This document shows positions 15,555 through 30,022 of a stretch of 64,000 nt of DNA, piece by piece. The DNA is taken from the NCBI RefSeq assembly GCF_023923205.1, contig NZ_CP099490.1, positions 1,798,001 through 1,862,000 on the forward strand, written 5' to 3'. Source of the DNA: Ornithinimicrobium cryptoxanthini. GTDB lineage: Bacteria; Actinomycetota; Actinomycetes; Actinomycetales; Dermatophilaceae. Numbering within the stretch: position 1 is the first letter of the stretch; each line of letters starts with the position of its first letter. The notes under the pieces were generated by a model that was given only the letters and a program-made list of their open reading frames with translations, had not been told where the DNA came from and did not search any database. The translations under genes were made by a program, and so were the position numbers.

Positions 15555-17846
15555 TCAGCCGCCGAACTCGGAGACGCCGCCCCGGGCAGAGTCCAACCAC
15601 TCGCGGCGCGCGTCGAGCGCGGCCTGGGCCTGCTGGATCTTCGTGTCGTCGCCGGAGGCCTGCGCCGCGGCGAGGTCCTGCTCGAGGCCCTGCACCGCGC
15701 GCTCGAGCTGCTCGACCATCGACTGGGCACGGGCGTTGAGCTCGGGGTTGGTGCGGGTCCACTTGGCGTCGTCGAGGTCGCGGACGGCCTGCTCGACCTT
15801 GCGGAGGCGACCCTCCACGCGGGACATGTCCTCGCGGGGCACCTTGCCGGCCTCGTCCCAGCGGTCCTGGATGGCCCGCAGCTGGGCCTTGGCCGAGGTC
15901 AGGTCCTTGACCGGGACCAGCGACTCGGCCTCCTTGAGGAGGTCCTCCTTGACGACCAGGTTGGCCTTGAACTCTTCGTTCTCGGCGGCCACCACCTCGT
16001 CCTTGGCGTTGAAGAAGGCGTCCTGGGCAGTCTTGAAGCGCTCCCACAGGGCGTCGTCGTCCGCACGCTGGGCACGACCGGCGCGACGCCAGTCCTGCAT
16101 CAGCCGCTTGAAGGCACCGGCGGTGGAGCCCCAGTCCTTGCTGGTGGAGAGTGCCTCGGCCTCAGCGACCAGCTTCTCCTTGGCCCGCTTGGCTTCGGTG
16201 TGCTGGGTGTCGAGCTCGCTGAAGAAGCCCTTGCGCGACTTGTCGAAGGTGCTGCGGGCCGAGCTCAGCCGCTGCCAGAGGGCGTTCTCGACGTCCTTGT
16301 CGAGCTTGGGGCCCTTCTTCTGCAGGCCGCGCCACTCGTCGAGCATGCCGCGCATCCGTGCGCTGGCGGTCTTCCACTGCACCTGGTGGACGTCGGCGGC
16401 GGCGAGCTTCTCGGCCTCGGCGACGAGCGCCTCGCGGGTCACGGTGGCCTCAGCCTTGGCCTGGGTGCGTGCCTCGGTCTCGGCGCGCTGGCGGTCCTTG
16501 ACCGCGACCTCGATCTGGTCCACGGCCTCGCGCAGCGCCGGCAGGTCGCCGACGACGTTGGCCTCACCGATCTGGTCTCGGAGCGTCTTCAGCGCCTCGC
16601 GCGCCTCGTGGGCGGAGAGGTCGGTCTGCCCCAGACGCTGCTGGAGCAGGCCGGCGTTGGCGGTCAGCTCGTCATACTTGCGGGCGAAGTAGGCTAATGC
16701 CTCCTCGTGGCTGGCCTCGGGGTAGGACCCGACGGCACGCTCCTGCTCACCGTCCTTGACGAAGACCGTGCCGTCGTCGCCCACCCGGCCGAACTTTACC
16801 GAGTCGGACATGGCCGCTGGGGGCGGCATGACCGGCACGACAGGACGCGCTGCCGGCCGGCGGCCTGCGAGGGCCGCGGGTGATGGCACGGGCGGACCCG
16901 GCTTCGGCGTCGGAACCGGGCTCGGGGGAGTGGCTGCGGGCTCGGGGGCTGCCTCAGTTGCCGGCTCTGGTGTGGCCACGGGGGCGGGCTCGGGCGCTGC
17001 CTCAGCGGCCGGCTCCGGTGCGGCCACAGCTGCGGGCTCGGGGGCAGGCTCGGCCTCCGACGACGCCTCAGCAGCGGGCTCCGACACGACCTCAGGAGTC
17101 GCTGTGTCCGGGACTGACGCGAGCGGGTCGGGCTCGGGGGTCGGGTCGACGGGGTCGGGGACTGGGGACGGTGCTGGGTCCGGCTGGCCCGGCTCGGGCT
17201 GAGGTTCAGGTGTCGGCTCGACGGGCTCTGGCAGACCGGGGACCGGGACGGTCGACGGGTCGGGGCTGGGCACTGACTCCGCCACCTCCGCACCGCTCGT
17301 CTCTCCTGCGGGTTCGGGTGTTGTCTCAGGGGCCGGCTCGGCTGCGGGCTCGGGGGTCGGGTCGATGGGGTCGGGGACTGGGGACGGTGCTGGGTCCGGC
17401 TGGCCCGGCTCGGGCTGAGGTTCAGGTGTCGGCTCGACCGGCTCTGGCAGACCGGGGACCGGGACGGTCGACGGGTCGGGGCTGGGCACTGACGCCGCCA
17501 CCTCGGCACCGCTCGTCTCGGCTGCGGGTTCGGGTGCTGTCTCAGGGGCCGGCTCTGGTGTGGGCTCGGGTGCTGTCTCGGTGGCCGGCTCGACGGGGTC
17601 GGGGACTGGGGAGGGTGCTGGGTCCGGCTGACCCGGCTCGGGCTGAGGTTCAGGTGTCGGCTCGACCGGCTCCGGCAGACCGGGGACCGGGACGGCCGAC
17701 GGGTCGGGGCTGGGCACTGACGCCGCCACCTCGGCACCGCTGCTCTCGGCTGCCTGGTCTGCGGGTGCCGTCTCGGGTGTCGTCTCGTCCGGAGCCACCG
17801 AGGGCTCGTCCGGTGTGGCTGGGGTTCCCTGCGTGTGCTCGCTCAC
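15555..17846 (-). CDS. DUF349 domain protein with a long repeated Pro/Glu arm
   Basis: A 763-residue protein. Residues 1 to about 345 are a low-complexity arm of Pro, Glu, Ala, Ser and Thr, containing three near-identical copies of a roughly 48-residue block. Residues 350 to 760 are charged, helical DUF349 repeats with Trp-containing signatures such as WRRAGRAQR, with coiled-coil character. The family's function is unknown. The start is a GTG overlapping the cyclophilin stop. There is no signal peptide, so the arm is cytoplasmic or a spacer. The proline-rich arm should need EF-P or a similar factor for translation. Confidence 0.86.
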   Translation of the reverse strand: MSEHTQGTPATPDEPSVAPDETTPETAPADQAAESSGAEVAASVPSPDPSAVPVPGLPEPVEPTPEPQPEPGQPDPAPSPVPDPVEPATETAPEPTPEPAPETAPEPAAETSGAEVAASVPSPDPSTVPVPGLPEPVEPTPEPQPEPGQPDPAPSPVPDPIDPTPEPAAEPAPETTPEPAGETSGAEVAESVPSPDPSTVPVPGLPEPVEPTPEPQPEPGQPDPAPSPVPDPVDPTPEPDPLASVPDTATPEVVSEPAAEASSEAEPAPEPAAVAAPEPAAEAAPEPAPVATPEPATEAAPEPAATPPSPVPTPKPGPPVPSPAALAGRRPAARPVVPVMPPPAAMSDSVKFGRVGDDGTVFVKDGEQERAVGSYPEASHEEALAYFARKYDELTANAGLLQQRLGQTDLSAHEAREALKTLRDQIGEANVVGDLPALREAVDQIEVAVKDRQRAETEARTQAKAEATVTREALVAEAEKLAAADVHQVQWKTASARMRGMLDEWRGLQKKGPKLDKDVENALWQRLSSARSTFDKSRKGFFSELDTQHTEAKRAKEKLVAEAEALSTSKDWGSTAGAFKRLMQDWRRAGRAQRADDDALWERFKTAQDAFFNAKDEVVAAENEEFKANLVVKEDLLKEAESLVPVKDLTSAKAQLRAIQDRWDEAGKVPREDMSRVEGRLRKVEQAVRDLDDAKWTRTNPELNARAQSMVEQLERAVQGLEQDLAAAQASGDDTKIQQAQAALDARREWLDSARGGVSEFGG
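17160..17303 (-). repeat. 144-bp direct repeat, copy 3 (in DUF349 gene)
   Basis: Third copy in the coding direction of a 144-bp unit encoding the SVPSPDPSTVPVPG...PSPVPDP block. It differs from the copy at 17376-17519 by only a few substitutions (for example, Glu replaces Ala in AESVPSPD). Confidence 0.9.
17376..17519 (-). repeat. 144-bp direct repeat, copy 2 (in DUF349 gene)
   Basis: Middle copy of the same unit, nearly identical to its neighbours and 216 bp from the copy at 17160. The near identity at synonymous positions points to recent duplication or gene conversion. Confidence 0.9.
17604..17747 (-). repeat. 144-bp direct repeat, copy 1 (in DUF349 gene)
   Basis: First copy in the coding direction, 228 bp from the copy at 17376 and slightly more diverged (SAVPVPG instead of STVPVPG). 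Spacers between copies encode looser Pro/Glu/Ala repeats. Confidence 0.9.
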
Positions 17847-18580
17847 TCTGACGCCTTTTCCTGTGTGACCTCGACCGAGAGGATGCTGATCGGTGCCGCG
17901 GGAGGCCCGTCGGCACCGCCGCCATCGACGCCTTGTTCGGCGACGCGGTCAACGATGTCCATTCCACTAGTGACCCTACCGAAGATGCTGTATCCACCAC
18001 CTTGCGTCGGCAGCTCGGTGTCGTTGTAGACGATGAAGAACTGCCCGCCGTTGCTGTTGGGGTCCTGGCTTCGCGCCATCGCAAGGGTGCCGGGTGGATA
18101 CTTGCCGTCCTCGGGGGCGTTCTCGATGCCGAAGGTGTAGCCCGGCGTGCCCCGTCCAGTGCCGGTCGGGTCACCGCACTGCAGCACATAGATCCCCTGC
18201 GTCGTCAGTCGGTGACAGGGACTGTCCTCCCAGTAGCCATGCTCGGCCAGGTGCGCGAAGGACCCGACAGTCTGGGGTGCCTTGTCGCCGTAGAGCTCGA
18301 CCTCGATGATGCCGCAGTTGGTGGTGATCGCACCCTGCCACGTGCCGGTGATCTCAGCCTCCGGCGCCTCCACCTGGGTCTGCCTGCCGCTGGGCACGGC
18401 GGGCGCATAGCCACAGCCGGCGTCGGCGCCGGCCGGAGACAGTGTGGTGGAGACGGCCGTCTCCTGAGGGGACGAGGACGGTTCGGCCACTGGAGCCTGA
18501 GAACTGCCGCAGGACGCGACGACAAGCGCGCTACCCACCAGCAACCCCCGGGCCAGCCACCGGTGACGACCCAACGCCAT
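17843..18580 (-). CDS. Cyclophilin-type peptidyl-prolyl isomerase, lipoprotein
   Basis: A 245-residue secreted isomerase. The N-terminus is a lipoprotein signal: basic residues, a hydrophobic stretch and the lipobox VVASC (Cys at about residue 24), so the mature protein is anchored outside the membrane. A disordered Ser/Thr/Pro linker leads to the cyclophilin domain, with IEVELYGDKAPQTVGSF, CHRLTTQGIYVLQCGDPTGTG and NSNGGQFFIVYND. It sits upstream of, and overlaps, the DUF349 gene. The position next to the MBL gene and hisS matches mycobacterial Rv2582. Confidence 0.93.
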   Translation of the reverse strand: MALGRHRWLARGLLVGSALVVASCGSSQAPVAEPSSSPQETAVSTTLSPAGADAGCGYAPAVPSGRQTQVEAPEAEITGTWQGAITTNCGIIEVELYGDKAPQTVGSFAHLAEHGYWEDSPCHRLTTQGIYVLQCGDPTGTGRGTPGYTFGIENAPEDGKYPPGTLAMARSQDPNSNGGQFFIVYNDTELPTQGGGYSIFGRVTSGMDIVDRVAEQGVDGGGADGPPAAPISILSVEVTQEKASE

Positions 18581-18694
18581 TCTTGTGCTCCTGACGTGCT
18601 CATCGGGTGGAGCCGCCAGTTTAGGCAGCGGCCCGACGCGAAGTGGTCACAACGTGATGACGGTTTGGACACGATCACGCGTAGGTTGGGTCAT

Positions 18695-19387
18695 GTGTTG
18701 GTGAAGCGGATTGAGGCGGCGGCCTTCGGGACCAATTGCTACGTCGTGGCGCCGGAGTCGGGACAGGAGTGCGTCATCGTCGACCCCGGCGTGGGTGTCG
18801 AGGCACACCTGGCAGAGGTGCTCGCGGACAGCGGGTTGCGCCCGGCCGCGGTCCTGCTCACCCACGGTCACCTCGACCACACCTACTCCGTCACGCCGGT
18901 CTGTGCGGGGACGACGGCCGCCTACATCCACGAGGATGACCGCTATCGCCTCCGCGACCCGCTGTCCAGCACGAGCCCGGCGCTGCTCAACATGCTGGAG
19001 CAGCAGTTCGGCACCCGCGCCTCGTGGAGCGAGCCCGACACCGTCGTGGACGTCAGGGGAGGGCAGGTCCTCCAGCTGGCTGGGCTGACCCTCGGCATCT
19101 CCCACGCCCCCGGTCACACGGAGGGGTCCGTCCTCTTCGACCTGGCCGGGGTCCCGAGCGGCATCGACGCGGACGTCGACCGCACGGTCCTCACCGGTGA
19201 CGTCCTTTTTGCGGGGTCCATCGGGCGCACCGACCTCCCGGGCGGCGACCACGGTGCGATGCAGCGCTCCCTGCGTGACGTCATACTCCCGCTGTCCGAC
19301 ACCAGCCTGGTGCTGCCCGGTCACGGGCCAGCCACCACGATCGCCCACGAGCGGGTGACCAACCCCTATCTGACCTCGCTGCGCTGA
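18695..19387 (+). CDS. MBL-fold hydrolase (glyoxalase II-like)
   Basis: A 230-residue metallo-beta-lactamase-fold hydrolase. The metal-binding THGHLDH motif, [10 protein letters not shown] and [19 protein letters not shown] are all present, typical of the YcbL/glyoxalase II-like group cleaving thioesters such as lactoyl-thiols. The GTG at 18695 gives the conserved N-terminus [20 protein letters not shown] 18701 is an alternative. No clear ribosome binding site is present, and TAGGTT lies 7 nt upstream, so the message may be leaderless. It precedes hisS as in mycobacteria (Rv2581c). Confidence 0.9.
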
Positions 19388-19438
19388 CGCCCGCCGCGCT
19401 CACCTCCTTCCGGCGACGGGCCAGGGCCAGGATCTCGT

Positions 19439-19444
19439 TAGACT
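19439..19444 (+). promoter_or_regulatory. -10 element for a probably leaderless hisS transcript
   Basis: TAGACT ends 7 nt before the hisS GTG at 19452, leaving no room for a ribosome binding site. I see no good -35 at the usual distance. Confidence 0.45.
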
Positions 19445-19451
19445 CGCCGTC

Positions 19452-20855
19452 GTGATCAAGCCCCGCACCGCCCCCGGCACCCTCGAGCTCCTGCCCACCG
19501 AGCAGATCGCGTTCCAGCGCATGCTCGACGTGATCCGCAGCGGCTACGAGCGGTTCGGCTTCCTGCCGATCGAGACGCCGGCCTACGAGGTCACCGACGT
19601 GCTGCTGACCAAGACCGGCGGCGAGACGGAGCGGCAGGTGCTCTTCGTCCAGTCCACGGGAGCGCTGGAGAAGGCTGCAGCGAACCCCGCGGCGGGGCTG
19701 CCCGACCTCGCGCTGCGCTTCGACCTCACCGTGCCGCTCGCGCGCTATGTGGCCGAGCACGAGCACCAGCTCACCTTCCCGTTCCGTCGCTATCAGATGC
19801 AGCGCGTCTATCGCGGTGAGCGTCCCCAGCGGGGCCGGTTCCGGGAGTTCTATCAGTGCGACATCGACATCATCGGCAAGGACGGTCTCAGCTCACGCCA
19901 CGACGCTGAGTGCCCGGCGGTGATCCACACGATCTTCACCGACCTGGCCATCGGCCCGTTCACGGTCCAGCTCAACAACCGCAAGCTGATGCGCGGCTAC
20001 TTCGAGGACCTCGGGCTGACCGACGCAGACCTGCAGGTCACGGTCCTGCGTGAGGTCGACAAGCTGGACAAGCGCGGTGCGGACGCGATCCGCCAGACCC
20101 TCGTGGGCGAGGGCCTGGGGCTGTCGGAGGAGGCCGCGGACGCCGTCCTGGCCCTCGTCGCCGTCCGTTCCACCTCCCACCAGGAGGCGCTGGCGCACCT
20201 GGACCGGGTCCTGGGGGAGTCGCGCGGCTCGGAGCTGCTCGCGACGGGAGTCGCCGAGCTGCGTGAGGTGCTGACGGTGCTGCGTGACCTGGGTGTCCCC
20301 GAGAGCGACTACGCCCTAAACTTCTCGATCGCCCGCGGTCTGGACTACTACACGGGCACCGTCTATGAGACGACCCTGGATGACCACCCGGAGATCGGGT
20401 CGGTCTGCTCCGGCGGCCGCTACGACGACCTGGCGGGGCAGTACACCAAGTCCACGCTGCCCGGTGTCGGCATGTCGATCGGGCTCAGCCGCCTCTTCTG
20501 GCAGCTGCGCGAGGCCGGGCTGGTGCAGACCGCCGAGTCGACGGTGCAGGTGCTGGTGCCGCAGCTTGATGAGGCCCACCTGCCGCAGTGCCTGGCCCTG
20601 GCCACCGACCTGCGACAGGGCGGGATCAACACCGAGGTGGTCCTGGACGGCGGCAAGCTCGGCAAACAGCTGAAGTATGCCGATCGCGCCGGGATCCGCT
20701 TCGTCGCCATCCTGGGGGAGCAGGAGGTCGGGGCCGGCACGGTGACGATCAAGGACCTGCGTCGTCAGGACCAGTTCTCCGTCGCCCGCGACGAGATCGT
20801 GCCGGCGCTGCGCGTCGAGCTGGCGCAGCCCCTCGACCTGCCGCGCGACGACTGA
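19452..20855 (+). CDS. hisS: Histidine--tRNA ligase
   Basis: A 467-residue class II aminoacyl-tRNA synthetase charging tRNA-His. Motif 2 with its loop is [20 protein letters not shown] (about residue 115), the histidine-binding signature is [12 protein letters not shown] (about 297), and motif 3 is [13 protein letters not shown]. The C-terminal anticodon-binding domain begins near residue 360 ([14 protein letters not shown]). It lies directly upstream of the TrpR-like regulator and the his operon, so histidine synthesis and its use are neighbours. A strong hairpin separates them. Confidence 0.96.
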
Positions 20856-20860
20856 GGCGA

Positions 20861-20932
20861 CGAGTGCCCCGACTGTGCGGGTCGGGAGCACGGCGAATTC
20901 AAGGGGTCAGCGGCACGTCACCGGGGCACTCG
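20861..20932. repeat. 11-bp inverted repeat with 50-nt loop after hisS
   Basis: CGAGTGCCCCG (20861-20871) and CGGGGCACTCG (20922-20932) are perfect inverted repeats starting 5 bp after the hisS stop. The 50-nt loop is too long for a simple terminator but can itself form smaller stems. It may form a structured 3' UTR or be a remnant of an insertion. Confidence 0.6.
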
Positions 20933-21004
20933 CGCAGCAACTCGGCATCCTTGCCCTGCGCACACGGCATACCTGTGCGGCCGGCCGGGTCGAGTCGTCA
21001 TACC

Positions 21005-21028
21005 CCGACCATGCGGTGGCATGGTCGG
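21005..21028 (+). terminator. Hairpin between hisS and the TrpR-family gene
   Basis: CCGACCATGC (21005-21014) pairs perfectly with GCATGGTCGG (21019-21028) around a GGTG loop. The strong 10-bp stem without a T-tract is the usual look of actinobacterial intrinsic terminators. It would insulate the his operon promoter from hisS transcription. Confidence 0.65.
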
Positions 21029-21043
21029 AATCAGCCGCGAAGC

Positions 21044-21069
21044 GTGTTAGCGTAATAACGCGCTAACAC
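21044..21069. promoter_or_regulatory. Palindromic operator ahead of the TrpR-family gene and his operon
   Basis: GTGTTAGCG (21044-21052) and CGCTAACAC (21061-21069) form a perfect 9-bp inverted repeat around TAATAACG, an AT-rich island in GC-rich DNA. It lies 36 bp before the regulator's ATG, where the core promoter must be; TAATAA could serve as a -10. By position and symmetry it is the likely binding site of the TrpR-family protein encoded downstream, giving autoregulation and control of hisGDCBHAF-IE. Confidence 0.7.
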
Positions 21070-21105
21070 ACCGGTTGGCGTCGGACACCACTCACGGGAG
21101 CCTTG

Positions 21106-21474
21106 ATGAAGCGACGCGACACCGGCCAGCCCCTCAGCGTCGCTGACGAGTCGTCACGAGGTGCGCGGGCGCAGGTCGAGCTGGCGCGGGCCCTGGCAGC
21201 CGTCGACGACGCAGACCGGATGACGGACTTCCTGGCCGACCTGTGCACACCGGCAGAACTGGAGGCGCTCGCCGACCGGTGGAGCGTGGTGCCGCTGCTG
21301 GCCGACGGGGTGTCCTACCGCCAGGTGCACGAGCAGACCGGGGTCAGCGTCACCACCGTCGGACGAGTGGCCCGCTGCCTGGAGCACGGCACCGGTGGTT
21401 ATCGCGACGTGCTCGCCCAGACCCGCGCGGAAGCCCTCGGGCATAGCCGCGGTGCGCAGCCGGCCCACGGCTGA
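21106..21474 (+). CDS. TrpR/YerC-YecD-family repressor, putative histidine operon regulator
   Basis: A 122-residue DNA-binding protein of the Trp-repressor superfamily. The conserved segment [24 protein letters not shown] is followed by a helix-turn-helix ([22 protein letters not shown], about residues 69-91). The first 20 residues are basic and variable. ATG 21106 has GGGAG at a good distance, better than the adjacent TTG. It precedes hisG by 80 bp on the same strand. Such proteins have been proposed as histidine-sensing regulators in other bacteria; that role here rests on position and the palindrome upstream. Confidence 0.85.
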
Positions 21475-21554
21475 GCGCACCGGATCAACCTGACGCGACG
21501 ACGCGCCTGCCCCAGACACCAGGGCCCACAGCGGCCCAGACCCGGAAGGTCACG

Positions 21555-22463
21555 ATGACCCCGCCTGCCACCACCCGAGACCGCCTGCGCGTGGCGATCC
21601 AGAAGTCCGGCCGCCTGGCCGAGCCCGCCCGCGACCTGCTCGCCTCCTGCGGCCTGACCTGGCGGGAGAGCCGCGACCGGCTCTTCTGCTATGGCGAGTC
21701 CCTGCCCGTCGACCTACTGCTCGTGCGCGACGACGACATCCCCGGCCTGATCGCCGACGGCGTCTGTGACCTCGGGATCGTCGGGCGCAACGTGCTCGTC
21801 GAGAACGACCTGGCGCGGCAGCACGATGGTGGGACGAGCGCCTTGAAGGAGTGGCGTCAGCTGGGCTGGGGCGTGTGCCGGTTGGACATCGCGATCAACG
21901 ACGACGAGCAGTGGACCGGCCCGGAGCAGCTGGCCGGGCAGCGCATCGCCACGAGCTTTCCGCGCACCCTCAGCCGGTGGCTGTCCGACAAGGGGGTCAG
22001 CGCTGAGGTGGTCACCCTCTCCGGCTCGGTCGAGATCGCCCCACGCCTCGGGCAGGCGGACGTGGTGTGCGACCTGGTCTCCACCGGCGGGACCCTGGCC
22101 GCGAACTCGCTGAAGCCGGTCGAGACCCTGCTGCACTCCGAGGCGGTCATCGCCGGGCCGGTCGCGGCGCTGGAGGACGGTCGTGAGGAGATCGCTGACC
22201 TGCTGCTGCGGCGGATGGACGGTGCCCTGCGCCTGAAGGAGACCCGCCTGCTGATGCTGCGTGCCGACCGCGCCGTCCTCACCGACGTGCTGCAGCGGCT
22301 GCCGGCCGGCGGCGAGCCGACGATCCTGGCCGTGGACGGTCGCGACGAGGTCTCGGTGCAGCTGCTGTGCCACAACGCCGTGCCGTGGCCGCGGCTGGAG
22401 GAGCTCAAGCGTGCCGGCGCACACACGATCATGGTGCTGCCGGTCGAGGGGATGCTGGCATGA
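21555..22463 (+). CDS. hisG: ATP phosphoribosyltransferase, long form (gammaproteobacterial type)
   Basis: A 302-residue HisG catalysing the first, committed step of histidine synthesis (ATP + PRPP to phosphoribosyl-ATP). The length and the C-terminal ACT-like regulatory domain mark the long, self-regulated form. Motifs [52 protein letters not shown] and [10 protein letters not shown], and the end [10 protein letters not shown], follow the enterobacterial/xanthomonad protein closely. GGAAGG lies 5-6 nt before the ATG. It overlaps hisD by ATGA. Confidence 0.96.
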
Positions 22464-23782
22464 GGACCGTGGTCTGGGCAGAGCTGGCTGAGGCCGAGCG
22501 CGCCGACCTGCTCTCGCGGGGGACTGCTGTGGCCGGCCCGCAGGTCACCGCCGGGGTCGCCGAGATCCTCGCCGGTGTGCGCGAGCGTGGAGATGCCGCG
22601 CTGGACGAGTATGGCGCGCGCTTCGACCCCGTCCCCGCCGAGTCAGTGGTGGTCGCACCCGAGGAGATCGCCGAGGCGGTCCGGGGCCTGACGCCCGAGC
22701 TGGGCGAGGCCATCACCGTGGCGGCAGACACCATCCGGACCTTCCACGAGGGCGGGATGGCCAGCGACTATGAGGTCGAGACGGCTCCGGGCGTGAACTG
22801 CGCCAGAGTGATCCGGCCGATCCGCCGGGTGGGCCTCTATGTCCCGGCCGGCTCCGCGCCGCTGCCGTCGACAGCGCTGATGCTCGGTGTCCCGGCGCAG
22901 CTCGCCGGATGCCCTGAGATCGTGCTGTGCACCCCTCCGGGACCGGACGGGCGGGCCGATGCGACCGTGCTGGCCGCGGCTGCCGAGTGCGGCATCAGCC
23001 AGGTCTTCGTGATCGGCGGGGCACAGGCGATCGCCGCCATGGCCTATGGCACTGCCTCGGTCCCGCGCTGCGACAAGATCTTCGGCCCGGGCAACGCCTG
23101 GGTCACCGAGGCCAAGCGGCAGGTCAGCACCGCCGAGGGAGGACCGGGCATCGACCTGCCTGCCGGGCCCTCGGAGGTCGTCGTCATCGCTGACGCCGGG
23201 GCTGACCCCGAGTTTGTCGCGGCCGACCTGCTCTCGCAGGCGGAGCACGGCCCGGACTCGCAGGTGCTCCTGCTCACCGACGACGCTGTGCTGGCGCAGG
23301 CGGTCGGCGAGCAGCTGGAGGCCCAGCTGGTGGACCTCCCGCGCGCCGAGACCGCGGCAAAGGCACTGGGGGCCAGTGCGGTCGTGATCACCAGCGACCT
23401 GGACGAGGCCCTCACCATCAGCAACGACTATGCGCCGGAGCACCTGATCCTCGCGCTGCGCGAGCCGTCGACCTGGGTGGACCGCGTCGAGCGCGCCGGA
23501 TCGGTCTTCCTGGGGGACTGGGCACCAGAGACCCTGGGCGACTACTGCAGCGGGACCAACCACGTCCTGCCCACGGCCGGCGCGGCGCGGTGGACCGGTG
23601 GCGTCAATGTCGCGAGCTTCCAGATCGCGATGACCGTGCAACGTGTCACGCCGGCCGGCCTGGCAGCACTGGCCGCGACGGCGGTGGAGCTATCCGCTGC
23701 CGAGGGACTCCTCGGGCACCAGGCGGCCGTCACCCGCCGCCTGGCCCGCGCCCGGGGCACGGACCGTGAGGGGAACTCATGA
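22460..23782 (+). CDS. hisD: Histidinol dehydrogenase (gammaproteobacterial type)
   Basis: A 440-residue zinc enzyme performing the last two NAD-dependent oxidations, histidinol to histidine. Signatures include [60 protein letters not shown] and GTNHVLPT, with the metal-binding Gln/His in SQAEHG. The start at 22460 gives ATGA coupling to hisG; the longer frame is a hisG shadow. The closest remembered relatives are proteobacterial ([22 protein letters not shown] block). Confidence 0.95.
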
Positions 23783-25014
23783 CGAGCAGCGAAACCCCTG
23801 CAAAAACACGGGGCCGGGCAGCAGAACCCCTGCAAAAATTGTTTCCGGCCCACCTGATCCGGGCGGACCTGCAGGACTTCACCGGCTACTCCTCCGCACG
23901 GACCAGCGACGACGGCCCGCCGGCCATGATCTGGCTCAACGCCAACGAGGCCTCCAGCGCCAGCGCCGTCGACCCGGAAGGCGCCAACCGCCGCTATCCC
24001 GATCCGCAGCCGGCCGAGCTGGTCGAGGCCCTGGCCCGGACCTATGCCGTCTCGCCCGACCGTGTCGTCGTCGGCCGGGGCAGCGACGAGGCCATCGACC
24101 TGCTGGTCCGCACCCTGTGCCGACCGGGCAGCACGGACGCGGTCGTGCAGACCTCACCGACCTTCGGGATGTATGCCGTCAGCGCCCGGCTGCAGGCCGT
24201 GCCGGTCATCGACGTCCCCCAGCGGGACCTCGGCGCCAGTTGGGAAGTTGACGTCGCCGCCGTCGCGCACGCCGCCCGCGGTGCGGGTGCCCGGCTGGTC
24301 TTCCTCGCCAGTCCCGGCAACCCCACGGGGGCCGTCGTCCCGCTGGATCAGGTCGCAGACCTGGCACACGCCCTGGCGGACACCGCGGTCGTCGTGATCG
24401 ACGAGGCCTACCAGGAGTTCGCAGGCCCACCCAGCGCCACGACGCTGCTGCCAGAGCACGCCAACCTCGTGGTGCTCCGCACCCTGTCCAAGGCGCACGG
24501 CCTGGCAGGAGTGCGCGTCGGCGTCGCCCTGAGCCATCCCGACCTGGCCACGGTGCTGCGCCGGGTGCAGGCGCCCTATCCCGTCCCCGCCCCCGTCGCC
24601 GAACTGGCGGTCAGCGCCCTGTCCACCTCGGCCCGGCGCTCCGTCGCTGCTCGGGTCGCCGAGACCCGCGCCGGGCGCGAGCGCCTCGTCGAGCTCCTGA
24701 GTGCCGACCCGAGGGTGCGCACCGTCTGTGGCAGCGAGGCCAACTTCCTGCTCGTCCGCAGCCCCGACGTGGATGCGCTGCTGACCGTCCTGCGCGGCAG
24801 TGGCATCGTGGTGCGCGACATGCGACACCTCCTCGACGACGCCCTGCGCGTGACCGTGGGCTCGCCGGCGGAGATCGACGCAGTGGCACGCGCTCTTGGC
24901 CGGCCCGCTGAAGGGGCACCGACCGCCTCGGTGCAGCCACCGACCGACGAGCTCCACAGCAGACCTGATCTCACCCGACCAACCACCACACCAGCCCGAG
25001 GACAACACCCATGA
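23779..25014 (+). CDS. hisC: Histidinol-phosphate aminotransferase (gammaproteobacterial type)
   Basis: A 411-residue fold type I PLP aminotransferase making histidinol phosphate. Motifs: WLNANEAS, RYPDPQPAELVEAL, VVGRGSDEAIDLLVR, SPGNPTGAVV, DEAYQEF and the PLP-lysine segment RTLSKAHGLAGVRVG (about residue 240). YSSAR...WLNANE and VQAPYPVPAPVAELAVSALS resemble E. coli HisC rather than actinobacterial ones. It has an N-terminal extension of about 25 residues encoded over a low-GC 14-bp direct repeat, and a 40-residue hydrophilic tail. ATGA overlaps join it to hisD and hisB. Confidence 0.94.
   Translation: MTSSETPAKTRGRAAEPLQKLFPAHLIRADLQDFTGYSSARTSDDGPPAMIWLNANEASSASAVDPEGANRRYPDPQPAELVEALARTYAVSPDRVVVGRGSDEAIDLLVRTLCRPGSTDAVVQTSPTFGMYAVSARLQAVPVIDVPQRDLGASWEVDVAAVAHAARGAGARLVFLASPGNPTGAVVPLDQVADLAHALADTAVVVIDEAYQEFAGPPSATTLLPEHANLVVLRTLSKAHGLAGVRVGVALSHPDLATVLRRVQAPYPVPAPVAELAVSALSTSARRSVAARVAETRAGRERLVELLSADPRVRTVCGSEANFLLVRSPDVDALLTVLRGSGIVVRDMRHLLDDALRVTVGSPAEIDAVARALGRPAEGAPTASVQPPTDELHSRPDLTRPTTTPARGQHP
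23793..23838 (+). repeat. 14-bp direct repeat at the 5' end of hisC
   Basis: AACCCCTGCAAAAA occurs at 23793-23806 and again at 23825-23838, 32 bp apart. The A-runs stand out in this GC-rich operon. The repeat encodes parts of the non-conserved N-terminal extension of HisC in two different frames, so it is not a protein repeat. Confidence 0.75.
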
Positions 25015-26105
25015 GCACCCTGCGCCCCGTCCTGTTCATCGACCGGGACGGCACGATCATCGAAGAACCCGAGGACTGCCAGATCGACTCCTACGAGAAG
25101 CTGCGCCTGGTGCCCGGGGTCCTGCCGGCCCTGACCATGCTGCGCGACGCCGGGTGGGACTTTGTGATGGTCTCCAACCAGAACGACCTCGGCGGCCCGA
25201 ACTTCCCGGTCGAGACCTTCCAGGGCCCGCACGACCTGCTGCTGCACATCCTGGAGAGCCAGGGCGTCACCTTCAAGGAGGTGCACGTCGACCCGCACCC
25301 GCCAGGTCCGAACCAGCCGGACACCCGCAAGCCGGGCATCGGCATGGTGCGTCACCTGCTCAGGGACCGCACCATCGACTGGGACCGCTCGATGATGGTC
25401 GGCGACCGGCTCTCCGACCGGGAGTTCGGCGACAACCTCGGCATCAAGACCTTCCTGCTGCAGAGCTCGATGGGCCAGGGTGGCGACGAGGCGGTCAGCT
25501 GGGAGCAGATCGCCCACGTCCTGGCGAACCGTCCGCGGGTCGCGGTCGTCGACCGCAACACCTCCGAGACCAGGATCCACGTCGAGGTCGATCTGGACCG
25601 CACCGGCGACATCGAGATCTCCACCGGCCTGGGCTTCCTGGACCACATGCTCGACCAGCTCGCCAAGCACGGCGGCTTCTCGATGAAGGTCACCTGCGAG
25701 GGCGACCTGCACATTGACGAGCACCACACCACCGAGGACACGGCCCTGGCGATCGGCCAGGCCCTCGACGAGGCACTCGGCGACCGGCGCGGCATCGGCC
25801 GCTATGGCTTCACGGCGCCGATGGACGAGGCGCAGGCGAGCGCCGCTCTCGACCTGTCGGGTCGGCCGTTCCTGAAGTTCGACTGCACCTTCGAGCGCGA
25901 GATGGTCGGCGACCTGCCCACCGAGATGGTCGAGCACTTCTGGCGCTCTTTCGCCGAGGCCCTGCGGGCGACGCTGCACCTGGGCGTCACCGGAGACAAC
26001 GCCCACCACAAGATCGAGGTGGGCTTCAAGGCCGTCGCCCGTGCGCTGCGCCAGGCGATCGCGGTGGAGGGCACCGAGCTGCCGTCGACCAAGGGGGTCC
26101 TGTGA
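25011..26105 (+). CDS. hisB: Bifunctional histidinol-phosphatase/imidazoleglycerol-phosphate dehydratase HisB
   Basis: A 364-residue fusion. Residues 1 to about 165 are a HAD phosphatase (DRDGT with nucleophile Asp11 and Asp13; SNQ near 55; RKPGIG; MVGDRLSDREF). Residues about 175-364 are IGP dehydratase (GLGFLDHMLDQLAKHGG, DEHHTTED, GRYGF, DNAHHKIE, and the end LPSTKGVL). Actinobacteria normally have only the dehydratase here. The zinc loop that carries C-x-H-x(n)-C-x-C in E. coli is cysteine-free (about residues 91-106, HVDPHPPGPNQPDTRKP), so the phosphatase domain probably lacks structural zinc. ATGA-coupled to hisC. Confidence 0.95.
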   Translation: MSTLRPVLFIDRDGTIIEEPEDCQIDSYEKLRLVPGVLPALTMLRDAGWDFVMVSNQNDLGGPNFPVETFQGPHDLLLHILESQGVTFKEVHVDPHPPGPNQPDTRKPGIGMVRHLLRDRTIDWDRSMMVGDRLSDREFGDNLGIKTFLLQSSMGQGGDEAVSWEQIAHVLANRPRVAVVDRNTSETRIHVEVDLDRTGDIEISTGLGFLDHMLDQLAKHGGFSMKVTCEGDLHIDEHHTTEDTALAIGQALDEALGDRRGIGRYGFTAPMDEAQASAALDLSGRPFLKFDCTFEREMVGDLPTEMVEHFWRSFAEALRATLHLGVTGDNAHHKIEVGFKAVARALRQAIAVEGTELPSTKGVL

Positions 26106-26118
26106 GCGCTGGTGGGCG

Positions 26119-26730
26119 ATGAGGCGACCGACGATCGCGCTGGTCGACTCCGGCGGGACCAACATCGCCTCGGTGCGCTACGCCCTGGACCGGGTCGGTG
26201 CCGACGCGCGGTTGACCGACGACCCTGACGTCATCCGCGCTGCCGACCGGGTGATCCTGCCCGGTGTCGGGGCGGCCGCGGCCGGCATGCGCCGGCTGCA
26301 CGCCGCCGGTCTGGTCGAGGTGCTGCGCGACCTGGAGCAGCCGCTGCTCGGCGTGTGCCTGGGCATGCAGCTGCTCTTCGACCGCTCTGCCGAGGACGGC
26401 GGGACGACGTGTCTGGGTCTGCTGGCCGGCGAGGTGGTCGCGATCACGCCCCGCCCCGGCCAGCGCGTGCCGCACATGGGTTGGAACGAGCTGACCTCCC
26501 TGCGCGAGGACCCGTTGACCAGCGGGCTGGCCGACGGCACGCGCGCCTATTTTGTGCACAGCTATGGTGCGCCTGTGACCGGGGACACCGTGATGACCAC
26601 CGACCACTGCGGGACCTGGAGTGCCGTCGTCCGCAGTGGCAACCACTGGGGTGCGCAGTTCCACCCCGAGAGGTCGGCTACCGCAGGCCTGCGGCTGCTG
26701 ACAAACTTTGTCCTGGAGGTGTCGCCATGA
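26119..26730 (+). CDS. hisH: Imidazole glycerol phosphate synthase, glutaminase subunit HisH
   Basis: A 203-residue class I amidotransferase supplying ammonia to HisF. Triad positions: Cys in LLGVCLGMQLLF (about residue 79) and His/Glu in GAQFHPERS near the C-terminus. LPGVGAAAAGM, VPHMGWNEL and YFVHSYGAPV are family blocks; QFHPERS-TAGLRLLTNF is the proteobacterial pattern. The ATG lies 13 bp after hisB, the only gap inside the operon; no strong ribosome binding site is seen, so translation may be coupled. ATGA overlap with hisA. Confidence 0.95.
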   Translation: MRRPTIALVDSGGTNIASVRYALDRVGADARLTDDPDVIRAADRVILPGVGAAAAGMRRLHAAGLVEVLRDLEQPLLGVCLGMQLLFDRSAEDGGTTCLGLLAGEVVAITPRPGQRVPHMGWNELTSLREDPLTSGLADGTRAYFVHSYGAPVTGDTVMTTDHCGTWSAVVRSGNHWGAQFHPERSATAGLRLLTNFVLEVSP

Positions 26731-27473
26731 CCGACTTCACCATCTATCCGGCAATCGACGTGCGCGAAGGTCGCGTGGTTCGGCTGCTGAAGGGTGACTA
26801 CAACAAGGAGACCCGCTATCCCGACGACCCGCTGACGGTCGCGCGGGAGTATGCCGAGGGTGGAGCCACCTGGCTGCACCTGGTCGACCTGGACGCGGCC
26901 CGGGCTGGTGACTACACACTGGTGCCGCTGCTGCGACAGATCGTGGCCGAGACCGGGCTGTCCGTGCAGACCGGTGGTGGGGTGCGCGGCAAGGAGGACG
27001 TCGCCGAGGTGCTCGAGGCCGGCGCCAGCCGCGTGGTCCTGGGCTCGCTGGCCGTGCGCGAACCGGAGACGGTCGCGTCCTGGATCGAGGAGTTCGGTCC
27101 CGAGCGGATCACGGTCGCGTTCGACACCCGGGCCGGTGAGGACGGCTCGTGGGTGCTGCCCACCAGCGGGTGGACCGCAGACTCCGAGACCGACCTGGCA
27201 GCGCTGCTGAGCCACTATGCCCGGTCCGGGCTGGCGCACGCGCTGTGCACCGACATCGGGCGCGACGGGACCCTGTCCGGCCCCAATCTCAACCTCTACA
27301 CCTTCCTGACCCGGGCGGTGCCCGACGTGGCGGTCCAGGCCTCCGGCGGTGCGCGCCACGCCGCCGATGTGCGCAGCGTGCGCAAGGTCGGCTGCGCCGG
27401 CGTGATCCTGGGCAAGGCGCTGCTCGAGGACAAGCTGACCATCACCGAGGCGATTGCTGAGGAGCGCCAGTGA
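26727..27473 (+). CDS. hisA: ProFAR isomerase HisA (proteobacterial type, not PriA)
   Basis: A 248-residue (beta/alpha)8 isomerase opening the ProFAR ring. The two catalytic aspartates are in PAIDVREG (near residue 11) and CTDIGRDGT (near residue 175); phosphate-binding loops are [11 protein letters not shown] and [11 protein letters not shown]. The block [20 protein letters not shown] is proteobacterial. Actinobacteria normally encode PriA, which also works as TrpF and has a distinct FVVTDI-KDGTL-GPNLDLL region and RGRGWE; those features are not seen. It is therefore predicted to be monofunctional. GTGA overlap with hisF. Confidence 0.93.
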
Positions 27474-28258
27474 CGTTGGCGCGCAGGGTGATTGCCTGCC
27501 TCGACGTCCGGGACGGACGGGTGGTCAAGGGCACTCGCTTCCGCGACCACCAGGACATGGGCGGCATCACCGAGCTGGCCGCGCACTACAGCGCGGAGGG
27601 CGTCGACGAGCTGGTCTTCTATGACATCACCGCCAGCCCGCAGGGGCGGCGCGTCGACCTGTCGTGGGTCGACGCCGTCGCCCGTCAGATCGACATCCCG
27701 TTCTGCGTGGCCGGTGGCATCGGCTCCGTCGCTGACGCCCGCGCGGTGCTCCTGGCCGGAGCCGACAAGATCTCCGTCAACACCCCCGCGACCCGCCGCC
27801 CCGAGCTGGTCCAGGAGCTGGCCCGCGAGTTCGGCAGCCAGTGTGTCGTCGTCGGGGTGGACAGTCTGCGCGACGAGGACGGCACCTGGCGCATCCGGCA
27901 GCTCACCGGCGACCCCGACGCCACTCGAGCCCTGGAGGTCACCACGCTCGACTGGGTCGAGCGGGTCCAGGAGCTCGGTGCCGGTGAAGTCGTGCTCAAC
28001 GCGATGGGCTCCGACGGTGTCCGACAGGGGTATGACGTGGAGCAGCTGAGCGCCGTGCGGCAGGTCTGTGAGGTGCCCCTGATCGCATCGGGCGGGGCGG
28101 GGCGGGCCCAGCACTTCATCGACGTCTTCCGGGCGGCGGACGTCGACGGCGCGCTGGCGGCCGGGGTCTTCCACTCCGGCGACCTCAGCATCGCGGCCCT
28201 CAAGGTGGAGCTGGCGGCTGCCGGCATCGTCGTCCGGCACGTGGAGGTGTTGTCATGA
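27470..28258 (+). CDS. hisF: Imidazole glycerol phosphate synthase, cyclase subunit HisF (gammaproteobacterial type)
   Basis: A 262-residue (beta/alpha)8 cyclase that with HisH makes IGP and AICAR. Catalytic Asp residues are in [13 protein letters not shown] (near residue 12) and [52 protein letters not shown] and ASGGAG follow the E. coli/xanthomonad type; actinobacterial HisF has DELTFLDVTASS and IPLTVGGG instead. The GTG start overlaps the hisA stop; ATGA joins it to hisIE. Confidence 0.95.
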
Positions 28259-28926
28259 CCACCCCGCAGGGGGAGGCTCACGCTGGGGCGCAAAGTAGCG
28301 CGCAGCGTCCGGCGCTGCAGCTGCCGCACGGGTTGGGCGTGGCCGACCTCGACTTCGCCAAGCAGGGCGGGCTGCTCCCCGTCGTGGTCCAGCACCACCG
28401 CACCGGGCACGTGCTGATGCTGGGTTATCAGGATGCCGAGGCCCTGACCACGACCCTGCGGACCGGGCTGGGCACGTTCTTCAGCCGCAGCCGCCAGCGG
28501 CAGTGGGTCAAGGGCGCCACCAGCGGCAACTACCTGCGGGTGGTCTCGGTCGAGGTCGACTGTGACCGGGACACCGTGCTCCTGGTGTGCTACCCGGACG
28601 GGCCGACCTGCCACACGGGGGAGGAGACCTGCTTCACCGGCGGGGCCGGCTCGTTCCTGGCGGAGCTCGAGGAGATCGTGCTCGCGCGTGACCAGGAGCG
28701 ACCCGAGGGGTCCTACACGAGCTCGCTGCTGGAGGGCGGCGTGCGCCGGATCGCCCAGAAGGTGGGGGAGGAGGGCGTCGAGACGGCCCTGGCTGCCGTG
28801 GCCCAGGACGATCCCGACCTGATCGGCGAGTCGGCCGACCTGATCTATCACCTGCTGGTCCTGCTCCGCAGCCGCGGCCTCGCCCTCGCGGACGTCGAGG
28901 TCGAGCTGCGACGACGCCACGGCTGA
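28255..28926 (+). CDS. hisI: Bifunctional PRA-cyclohydrolase/PRA-pyrophosphohydrolase HisIE
   Basis: A 223-residue fusion of steps two and three of the pathway. The cyclohydrolase domain (about residues 25-125) has the metal and zinc cysteines in VEVDCDRD and [12 protein letters not shown]. The pyrophosphohydrolase domain (about 140-223) has [24 protein letters not shown]. In actinobacteria hisI and hisE are generally separate genes, so the fusion supports transfer of the operon. The first 20 residues are extra. It is the last gene; lgt follows on the same strand after a short gap. Confidence 0.95.
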
Positions 28927-29022
28927 AGCCCACGCGGCGGTCCGAACCACCCCACAACGGGGAGCGAGCAGGGGGTCGTTTCTCGACGGGGCATGCGGTC
29001 CAGCATGATGGGCGGTGTGATC

Positions 29023-29991
29023 ATGTCGATCCCCAGCCCAGACATCAGCCAGTTCTCCATCGGCCCGCTGACCATCCACATCTATGCCCTGTGCCTGATG
29101 GCCGGCATGATCCTGGCCTGGGTGCTGGGGCGCTGGCGGTGGGTGAGGCGCGGCGGACTGGCCGAGACCTGGGAGTCGATCGCCTTCGTGGCGATCATCA
29201 GCGGCATCATCGGTGCCCGCATCTATCACGTCCTCACACACTGGGGGGACTACTTCGGGGCTGGCCGCGACCCGATCAGCGCGCTCTACATCTGGGAGGG
29301 CGGCATCGCGATCTTCGGCGCCCTCATCGGCGGCGGCCTCGGTGCGCTGTATGTCGCGTGGCGCAAGGGCGCCCGGCTCAGCGCCTTCGCCGACGCACTG
29401 GCTCCGGGTCTGATCTTCGCCCAGGCCACCGGCCGGCTCGGCAACTGGTTCAACCAGGAGCTCTTCGGTGGCCCCGACGACGGACCGCTGGGCCTGGAGA
29501 TCGATCCGGACCGGCGCCCTCCCGAGTTCCGGGACGTGGAGACCTTCCAGCCGACCTTCCTCTATGAGCTGACCTGGAACGCGCTCGGCGGGCTGCTGCT
29601 GCTCTGGCTGGACCGCAAGTTCACCCTGGGTTGGGGCAAGCTGTTTGCGCTCTACATGGTGGTCTACGGCTCGGGCCGATTCTGGATCGAGGGGATCCGG
29701 ACGGACTTCAGCTATCTGATCGGCCCGTTTCGCACCAACCAGTTCACGGCCCTGATCTTCATCGTCGTGGGGCTGCTGCTCTTCGCCGCGCTGCACAAGC
29801 TCCGGCCCGGACGTGAGCCCTGGGTCGAACGGGCCGGTGTGGGCGGGCCGGACGAGGTCACCCCCGCGGAGGAGAGGGCCGGCTCTGGCGAGGCTGCGAC
29901 AGACAGCGTCGTCGTGGACGAGGTGGCCAGCGACGCGCAGTCAGAGGACGTCGGCGCCGAGGCCGGGGGGCCCGACCCTCGGGAGACGTGA
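29023..29991 (+). CDS. lgt: Prolipoprotein diacylglyceryl transferase
   Basis: A roughly 322-residue, seven-helix membrane enzyme that transfers diacylglycerol to lipobox cysteines, needed for lipoproteins such as the cyclophilin here. The signature GRLGNWFNQELFG (about residue 145) and the IYHVLTHW, YIWEGGIAIFGALIGG and GRFWIEGIRTD segments are intact. The last 65 residues are an acidic tail. ATG 29023 gives the typical MSIPSPDI start with GGGCGG upstream; in-frame ATG 28993 is possible. Actinobacteria often have trp genes between his and lgt; none is here. Confidence 0.93.
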   Translation: MSIPSPDISQFSIGPLTIHIYALCLMAGMILAWVLGRWRWVRRGGLAETWESIAFVAIISGIIGARIYHVLTHWGDYFGAGRDPISALYIWEGGIAIFGALIGGGLGALYVAWRKGARLSAFADALAPGLIFAQATGRLGNWFNQELFGGPDDGPLGLEIDPDRRPPEFRDVETFQPTFLYELTWNALGGLLLLWLDRKFTLGWGKLFALYMVVYGSGRFWIEGIRTDFSYLIGPFRTNQFTALIFIVVGLLLFAALHKLRPGREPWVERAGVGGPDEVTPAEERAGSGEAATDSVVVDEVASDAQSEDVGAEAGGPDPRET

Positions 29992-30022
29992 CACTGGTGT
30001 GCCCCCGCGCACCAGTGTCACG
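29987..30022 (+). terminator. Terminator overlapping the lgt stop codon
   Basis: CGTGACACTGGTG (29987-29999) pairs perfectly with CACCAGTGTCACG (30010-30022) around a 10-nt C-rich loop. The left arm contains the lgt TGA. It is followed by about 100 bp of non-coding DNA before the convergent membrane-protein gene, and may work in both directions. Confidence 0.75.

Follow-up and report, generated by a model that had tools for sequence, protein, structure and literature searches.

Probable replacement of a histidine operon in Ornithinimicrobium and its relatives by one of gammaproteobacterial type, with retention of priA as SubTrpF2

A stretch of 64,000 nucleotides (hereafter the window), enclosed in the 3.77-Mb single-contig genome of Ornithinimicrobium cryptoxanthini, contains a histidine operon, hisG-D-C-B-H-A-F-IE, headed by its own regulatory gene, hisR. 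The operon was very probably acquired whole and took the place of the native set, of which priA was kept and narrowed to the TrpF-only enzyme SubTrpF2. The proposed donor is a gammaproteobacterium placed at the root of the Lysobacter/Xanthomonadales line or close to it, and the recipient an ancestor shared by Ornithinimicrobium, Serinicoccus and, probably, Kytococcus; the operon would have come complete with HisR and its operator. The native hisD, hisC, hisB and hisH, which the foreign pathway is proposed to have made redundant, would then have been deleted from the native locus, while priA, proposed to be indispensable because the genome has no trpF, would have remained in place, given up its binding residues for the histidine substrate and become TrpF-only. 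We infer this order of events. Transfer of whole his operons as such is already known, and so is SubTrpF2 itself.

The cassette comprises one operator and nine intact genes on the + strand:
21044..21070, no strand assigned: HisR operator region (20-bp core and upstream half-site)
21106..21474, +: hisR, repressor of the TrpR family (YerC/YecD, HisR), 122 aa, heading the operon (profile match)
21555..22463, +: hisG, ATP phosphoribosyltransferase, long form, HisG_C present (profile match)
22460..23782, +: hisD, histidinol dehydrogenase, gammaproteobacterial type (profile match, tree)
23779..25014, +: hisC, histidinol-phosphate aminotransferase, gammaproteobacterial type (profile match, tree)
25011..26105, +: hisB, bifunctional histidinol-phosphatase (HAD) / IGP dehydratase (curated model, tree)
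26119..26730, +: hisH, IGP synthase glutaminase subunit (profile match, tree)
26727..27473, +: hisA, ProFAR isomerase, gammaproteobacterial type, not PriA (profile match, trees)
27470..28258, +: hisF, IGP synthase cyclase subunit (profile match, tree)
28255..28926, +: hisIE, fused PRA-CH / PRA-PH (curated fused model)
The genes outside the cassette on either side are:
19452..20855, +: hisS, histidyl-tRNA synthetase, upstream flank (upstream in Kytococcus too)
28993..29991, +: lgt, downstream flank

The gene order, hisG-D-C-B-H-A-F-I(E), matches that of E. coli K-12. HisB exceeds the curated cut-off for the bifunctional form (NF003937, 502 bits against 443), as HisIE does for the fused form (NF002747, 248 bits against 187), and the first gene passes the YerC/YecD model (TIGR02531, 57 against 42) and fails that of TrpR proper (29 against 67). 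A preliminary description of this DNA had recognized the complete operon in this order, both fusions and a TrpR-like regulatory gene, and in all of this it was right; the starts of hisR (ATG at 21106), hisD (22460) and hisH (26119) are corrected here from earlier coordinates. It had also raised the possibility of a second, native his set elsewhere in the genome, where a single HisG match and a single HisB match were found (the genome-wide scan for a second set covered these two proteins). The G+C content and GC3 of the cassette are close to those of neighbouring genes, so that composition alone gives no sign of transfer.

The origin of the cassette was sought in trees of HisD, HisC, HisH, HisA and HisF rooted with planctomycete/Rhodothermia outgroups, which replaced trees without an outgroup because the latter cannot show whom the carriers of the operon join. 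Comparators of gammaproteobacterial type were, where present, the proteins of E. coli, Erwinia, Pseudoalteromonas, Deinococcus plasmids and Bacteroides, and viral contigs and plasmids (40 of 103 plasmid records listed) supplied the Bacteroides, enterobacterial, Pseudoalteromonas and Deinococcus ones, with no Xanthomonadales among the entries listed. The carriers join the gammaproteobacterial type with supports of 99 (HisD), 95 (HisC), 97 (HisH), 98 (HisA) and 100 (HisF), which implies a donor lineage with a gammaproteobacterial operon. Four of these proteins reject a grouping of carriers with the native proteins of actinobacteria: HisD (p 0.0006), HisC (p 0.012), HisA (p 0.007) and HisF (p 0.0001). 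The gammaproteobacterial character attributed earlier to the whole set is thus established for these four; HisH groups in the same way in the best tree, where a union with the native proteins is not rejected (given below).

HisB gives the best view of the donor. Among 120 matches listed, the nearest named protein beyond the carrier clade is from Lysobacter (about 63% identity), and the HisB proteins of other family members reach 40-49% over the dehydratase domain; a protein search with HisD, also with 120 matches listed, returned the carrier clade and unassigned entries and was uninformative on this point. In a careful HisB tree the carriers, Kytococcus and a Lysobacter group (three Lysobacter and ten further proteins) stand together with support of 97/96, the carriers being sister to the Lysobacter group and not nested within it. 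The earlier suggestion that Xanthomonadales are closest agrees with HisB, in the form of a sister relationship; together with the type of regulator, this placement suggests the Xanthomonadales link. Reverse flow, in which the Lysobacter group received the operon from the actinobacterial clade, would also produce sister groups with neither nested in the other, but the operon type, the fusions and the near outgroups (E. coli, Pseudoalteromonas) are all gammaproteobacterial. Lysobacter itself belongs to this class, and reverse flow is judged quite improbable; transfer would instead have run into the actinobacterial ancestor.

The native locus retains a record of what was replaced. In relatives the native order is hisD-hisC-hisB-(hyp)-hisH-priA-sseB, with sseB following priA in 12 of 12 native loci and the gene hyp present in five; three of the 12, all from one genus, read glnA-glnE-hisD-hisC-hisB-hyp-hisH-priA-sseB. 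In 13 of 13 carrier loci, both Kytococcus included, the order is glnA-glnE-hyp-priA-sseB, from which hisD, hisC, hisB and hisH are gone, and 12 of these stretches also include infC downstream; the window genome reads glnA-glnE-hyp-priA-sseB-infC-tsnR. Remnants of the four genes in carriers gave no match at E<=1e-3 with one native set as the query. Both the trees and the loss of native hisD-C-B-H from the ancestral locus support the earlier proposal that one cassette, with its regulator, replaced the native set, with the amendment that priA was spared. The hyp gene (L081:10211-10840, - strand, 209 aa, no Pfam/NCBIfam match), which lies between hisB and hisH in the five native loci, is kept beside priA in all 13 carrier loci, with 27-33% identity in Kytococcus.

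The window genome encodes three PF00977 proteins, namely the HisA and HisF of the window and a third at G000:C1:2231500-2232213, for which the best model is hisA-trpF, below its cut-off (204 against 306 bits). Later tests were made on 22 of the 28 carriers (G005, G009, G019, G023, G084 and G176 were left out), and a second, PriA-type copy is present in all 22. No TrpF match was found in the window genome or in any of 36 genomes, carriers or not, while 14 of 14 controls were positive. Three Serinicoccus-type PriA matches were listed with an internal TGA, which is taken as the end of the gene since the frames there are of 235 aa. In both Kytococcus genomes priA is fused in frame to sseB (L134, priA 9244 to sseB 10617, 470 aa; L135, priA 9325 to sseB 10683, 465 aa), and in the window genome the two genes merely overlap.

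Actinobacterial PriA normally performs both the HisA and the TrpF steps (PMC13055916). With the M. tuberculosis numbering of that paper, Arg85, Thr105, Trp145 and Thr170 are all replaced in 22 of 22 carriers and kept in 17 of 17 non-carrier PriA proteins (one of which lacks column 11; copy number was checked in 14 of the 17 genomes), and all 22 carriers retain Asp11, Asp130, Asp175, Arg143 and Ser81. The four replaced residues are ProFAR-binding ones, and the PriA of carriers looks fit only for tryptophan synthesis. Changes at 85, 105, 145 and 170 have been linked to the loss of HisA activity in SubTrpF2, and the SubTrpF2 of O. murale complements trpF and not hisA in E. coli (PMC13055916, Rosas-Becerra et al. 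2026, April). The same source lists Arg19 to Gln as a key change; Gln19 is present in carriers, yet also in 11 of 11 non-carrier PriA proteins of the same family, and so predates the shift and is not diagnostic of it.

The SubTrpF2 described from Ornithinimicrobium and Serinicoccus (PMC13055916) is the same enzyme, in the same clade, and TrpF is missing there too. It was explained as a duplicate of hisA recruited to another locus, the position of which is not reported. In line with a duplication, every Ornithinimicrobium and Serinicoccus genome of that study has the two copies, as do 20 of 20 genus genomes examined here, but SubTrpF2 joins native PriA with support of 99, its union with the HisA of the same organisms as one clade is rejected (p-AU 1.9e-8), and it occupies the ancestral his locus, from which hisDCBH are missing. 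Duplication is thus scarcely credible. In the replacement account, unlike the published one, it is hisA that is foreign, and SubTrpF2 is the native PriA at the ancestral his locus; Kytococcus is added here to the known holders of SubTrpF2.

Upstream of hisR lies a 9-bp inverted repeat, GTGTTAGCG-8-CGCTAACAC (21044-21052 and 21061-21069), with a 20-bp operator core, CGTAATAACGCGCTAACACA, at 21051-21070; the start given in the preliminary description, 21044, is the first base of this repeat. A TANNNT-like sequence (21048-21053), a putative -10 element, overlaps the operator. All 20 carrier loci read have a site of the form GTGTTAGCGTRMTAGCRCGTTRNTACA ahead of hisR; since its left ten bases served as the anchor for finding the sites, the right part is the independent observation. 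Over these 20 loci the palindrome has a mean of 5.7 of 10 pairs matched, compared to 3.0 for sliding 20-mers. The core pattern has a single exact match in each of 18 of the 22 carrier genomes and none in 14 non-carriers; all 18 matches share the strand of hisB and precede it by 3.7-4.1 kb, and the backward pattern used as a control gave one match across 36 genomes. A single match per genome, located at its own operon, makes HisR look like a dedicated switch for that operon. The best solved relative of the window HisR is 3g1c, which is called HisR in PMC9413887, and binding by the HisR of Ruminococcus gnavus was stimulated by histidine in vitro (PMC9413887). The HisR of the window organism would be expected to bind histidine and shut its own operon through the single operator at the operon head. 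Neither the 12 native his loci nor six loci from E. coli and plasmids used for comparison gave a hisR match, no Rfam match to a T-box or other RNA leader was found in 17000-30000, and a scan for sigma-70 promoters and terminators found none. A HisR-like protein with 60% identity (P0223) is assigned to an Actinomycetaceae bacterium, a match suggesting that other actinobacteria may carry a regulator of this type.

A bifunctional HisB supplies its own histidinol phosphatase, and the state of the native phosphatase, HisN, in carriers fits a relaxed need for it. Of 20 non-carriers, 18 have a HisN above the model cut-off and two score 267-271 bits; none of 22 carriers reaches the cut-off, and they score 235-265 bits in nine genomes, 180-203 in eleven and 136-137 in the two Kytococcus; the last is a level that paralogues reach, and HisN is counted as missing in Kytococcus only. 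Kytococcus was noted before as lacking HisN, and Cg0911 was suggested in its place (PMC5516325); the fused HisB is a simpler candidate for its histidinol phosphatase.

Full-length HisB is present in 24 of 24 genus-level genomes. Fourteen genomes from the order's other families gave a best match limited to the dehydratase domain in 13 cases and no match in one. A sample of the family (149 genomes, 53 genera) contains full-length HisB in nine of nine genomes of the genus and in two of two of the Kytococcus group (L049, L135); among the remaining 138, some of which hold a separate weak HAD match, the best match is to the dehydratase domain only in 134, and four have no match. Far from being widespread in the family, which would have pointed to an ancestral operon, full-length HisB is thus confined to two of 53 sampled genera and lacking in 51. 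The bifunctional HisB model is passed by one of 394 genomes of the class, the window's own, and no other carrier is among those 394. Overall there are 26 distinct genus-level carriers and two of the Kytococcus group, and the named relatives of the window HisB are from Ornithinimicrobium, Serinicoccus, Kytococcus and Ornithinicoccus. A contig search with this HisB returned 33 loci, made up of the carrier clade and dehydratase-only relatives. In 19 named carrier loci the gene order is constant to the contig ends, with hisR visible in 18 (L040 starts at hisG). The replacement can accordingly be mapped further back than had been thought, to the whole Ornithinimicrobium/Serinicoccus clade plus Kytococcus.

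Several results weigh against replacement by transfer or narrow what can be read from it. A grouping of carriers with native proteins is not rejected for HisH (p 0.22) or for HisB (p 0.10), the native HisB spanning half of the columns; native comparators were at hand for six of the eight His proteins, HisG and HisIE being the others, and the trees are of the enzymes and not of HisR; most trees were built by a quick method, and those of HisC and PriA carry long-branch warnings; and named Xanthomonadales sequences were at hand for HisB only (the three Lysobacter proteins). The operator pattern was derived from the same sites on which it was counted, and four of 22 carriers (G013, G014, G022, G045) have no exact match to it. 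HisN is not deleted in Ornithinimicrobium but only below the cut-off, in 20 of 20 carriers of the genus. The HisH and HisB results, like the lack of a compositional anomaly, would suit vertical inheritance, in which the fused operon is an old form of the actinobacteria that other lineages have lost. Of the six proteins tested, however, four (HisD, HisC, HisA and HisF) contradict it; sampled relatives keep his genes of native type with priA in place, one native his gene is still at its native address in carriers, and the operator is of proteobacterial type. Vertical inheritance is thus extremely improbable, and replacement by transfer is retained.

It is likely, with less assurance than for the transfer itself, that in Ornithinimicrobium, Serinicoccus and Kytococcus a single ancient replacement caused PriA to specialize stepwise and HisN to decay by degrees. 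The alternative, which is unlikely but better placed than those above, is that Kytococcus and Ornithinimicrobium/Serinicoccus made two or more acquisitions, with parallel loss of hisDCBH and parallel decay of PriA. On its side, the HisF tree does not unite the two but puts Kytococcus outside Ornithinimicrobium plus the gammaproteobacterial type (86), the free HisB tree has Kytococcus weakly nearer Lysobacter (60/19), and the HisB of the window is equally far from that of Kytococcus (62-63%) and Lysobacter (63%). A GlnE tree, in which 21 other sampled family members form their own branch (89), does not join the two hosts either, nor does it reject a common host clade (p 0.22). One carrier clade is nevertheless not rejected for HisF (p 0.12) or for HisB (p 0.54), where it is slightly likelier than the free tree, and HisD (99), HisC (99), HisH (95) and HisA (96) unite the two in trees that contain no Xanthomonadales. 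The SubTrpF2 proteins of both also form one clade (99), with a long Kytococcus branch. Kytococcus and Ornithinimicrobium share hisR as first gene, hisS upstream and the same scar, and these favour one event in a common ancestor.

Transfers of an entire gammaproteobacterial his operon, with the fused hisB (hisNB), have been described in Campylobacter and in CFB bacteria (Fani 2007, PMC1963479). The present case is like them in both respects, but the available text mentions no consequence for PriA there, and it reports hisNB in 0% of Actinobacteria among 36 histidine producers, whereas the carriers here are actinobacterial and have it. Similarly, the available part of the study of Xanthomonadales HisR (PMC9413887) places actinobacterial HisR only in Coriobacteriales/Eggerthellales and never in a his cluster, and a his-clustered HisR of proteobacterial type is added here to Actinomycetota. 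In Corynebacterium SubHisA (Noda-Garcia 2013, as described in PMC5404923) a transferred amino acid operon likewise freed PriA of one job, and PriA specialized; there the trp operon arrived and HisA was kept, while here the his operon arrived and TrpF was kept, a mirror image. Actinomyces SubTrpF (PMC5404923) is also a PriA without HisA activity, changed at the position of Trp145 (Trp139 there), but it was driven by gene loss and not by replacement of his genes. Among the literature matches listed, in which subscription journals are thinly covered, none links SubTrpF2 to a his transfer or reports this operon replacement. The evolution of enzyme specificity has been studied with PriA as a model, and the replacement would give a mechanism and a historical cause to a subfamily that the literature derives from a duplication, with the ancestral locus displaying a clean deletion scar and with the changes that mark the shift (85, 105, 145, 170) separated from Gln19, which was already present. 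If true, SubTrpF2 and Corynebacterium SubHisA are two matching natural experiments that show what becomes of an enzyme with two functions when genes are gained.

Some minor features of the loci were also recorded. The lgt of the window (28993-29991; recorded together with L082:7156-9958) adjoins the his cassette and does not follow trpCBA, its usual place in actinobacteria. An IS30-like transposase gene (L081:4493-6112, - strand) is beside tsnR near the old his locus, and no match to it was found in the 12 other carrier priA loci. One contig labelled as an Acidobacteria metagenome-assembled genome (L063) has an operon of Ornithinimicrobium type beside hisS and is probably a binning error. Plasmids of Deinococcus radiophilus and D. 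proteolyticus (L072, L073) carry hisG-D-B-H-A-F-IE with a bifunctional HisB and no hisR match, and in the D. radiophilus plasmid an IS630 transposase sits between hisD and hisB.

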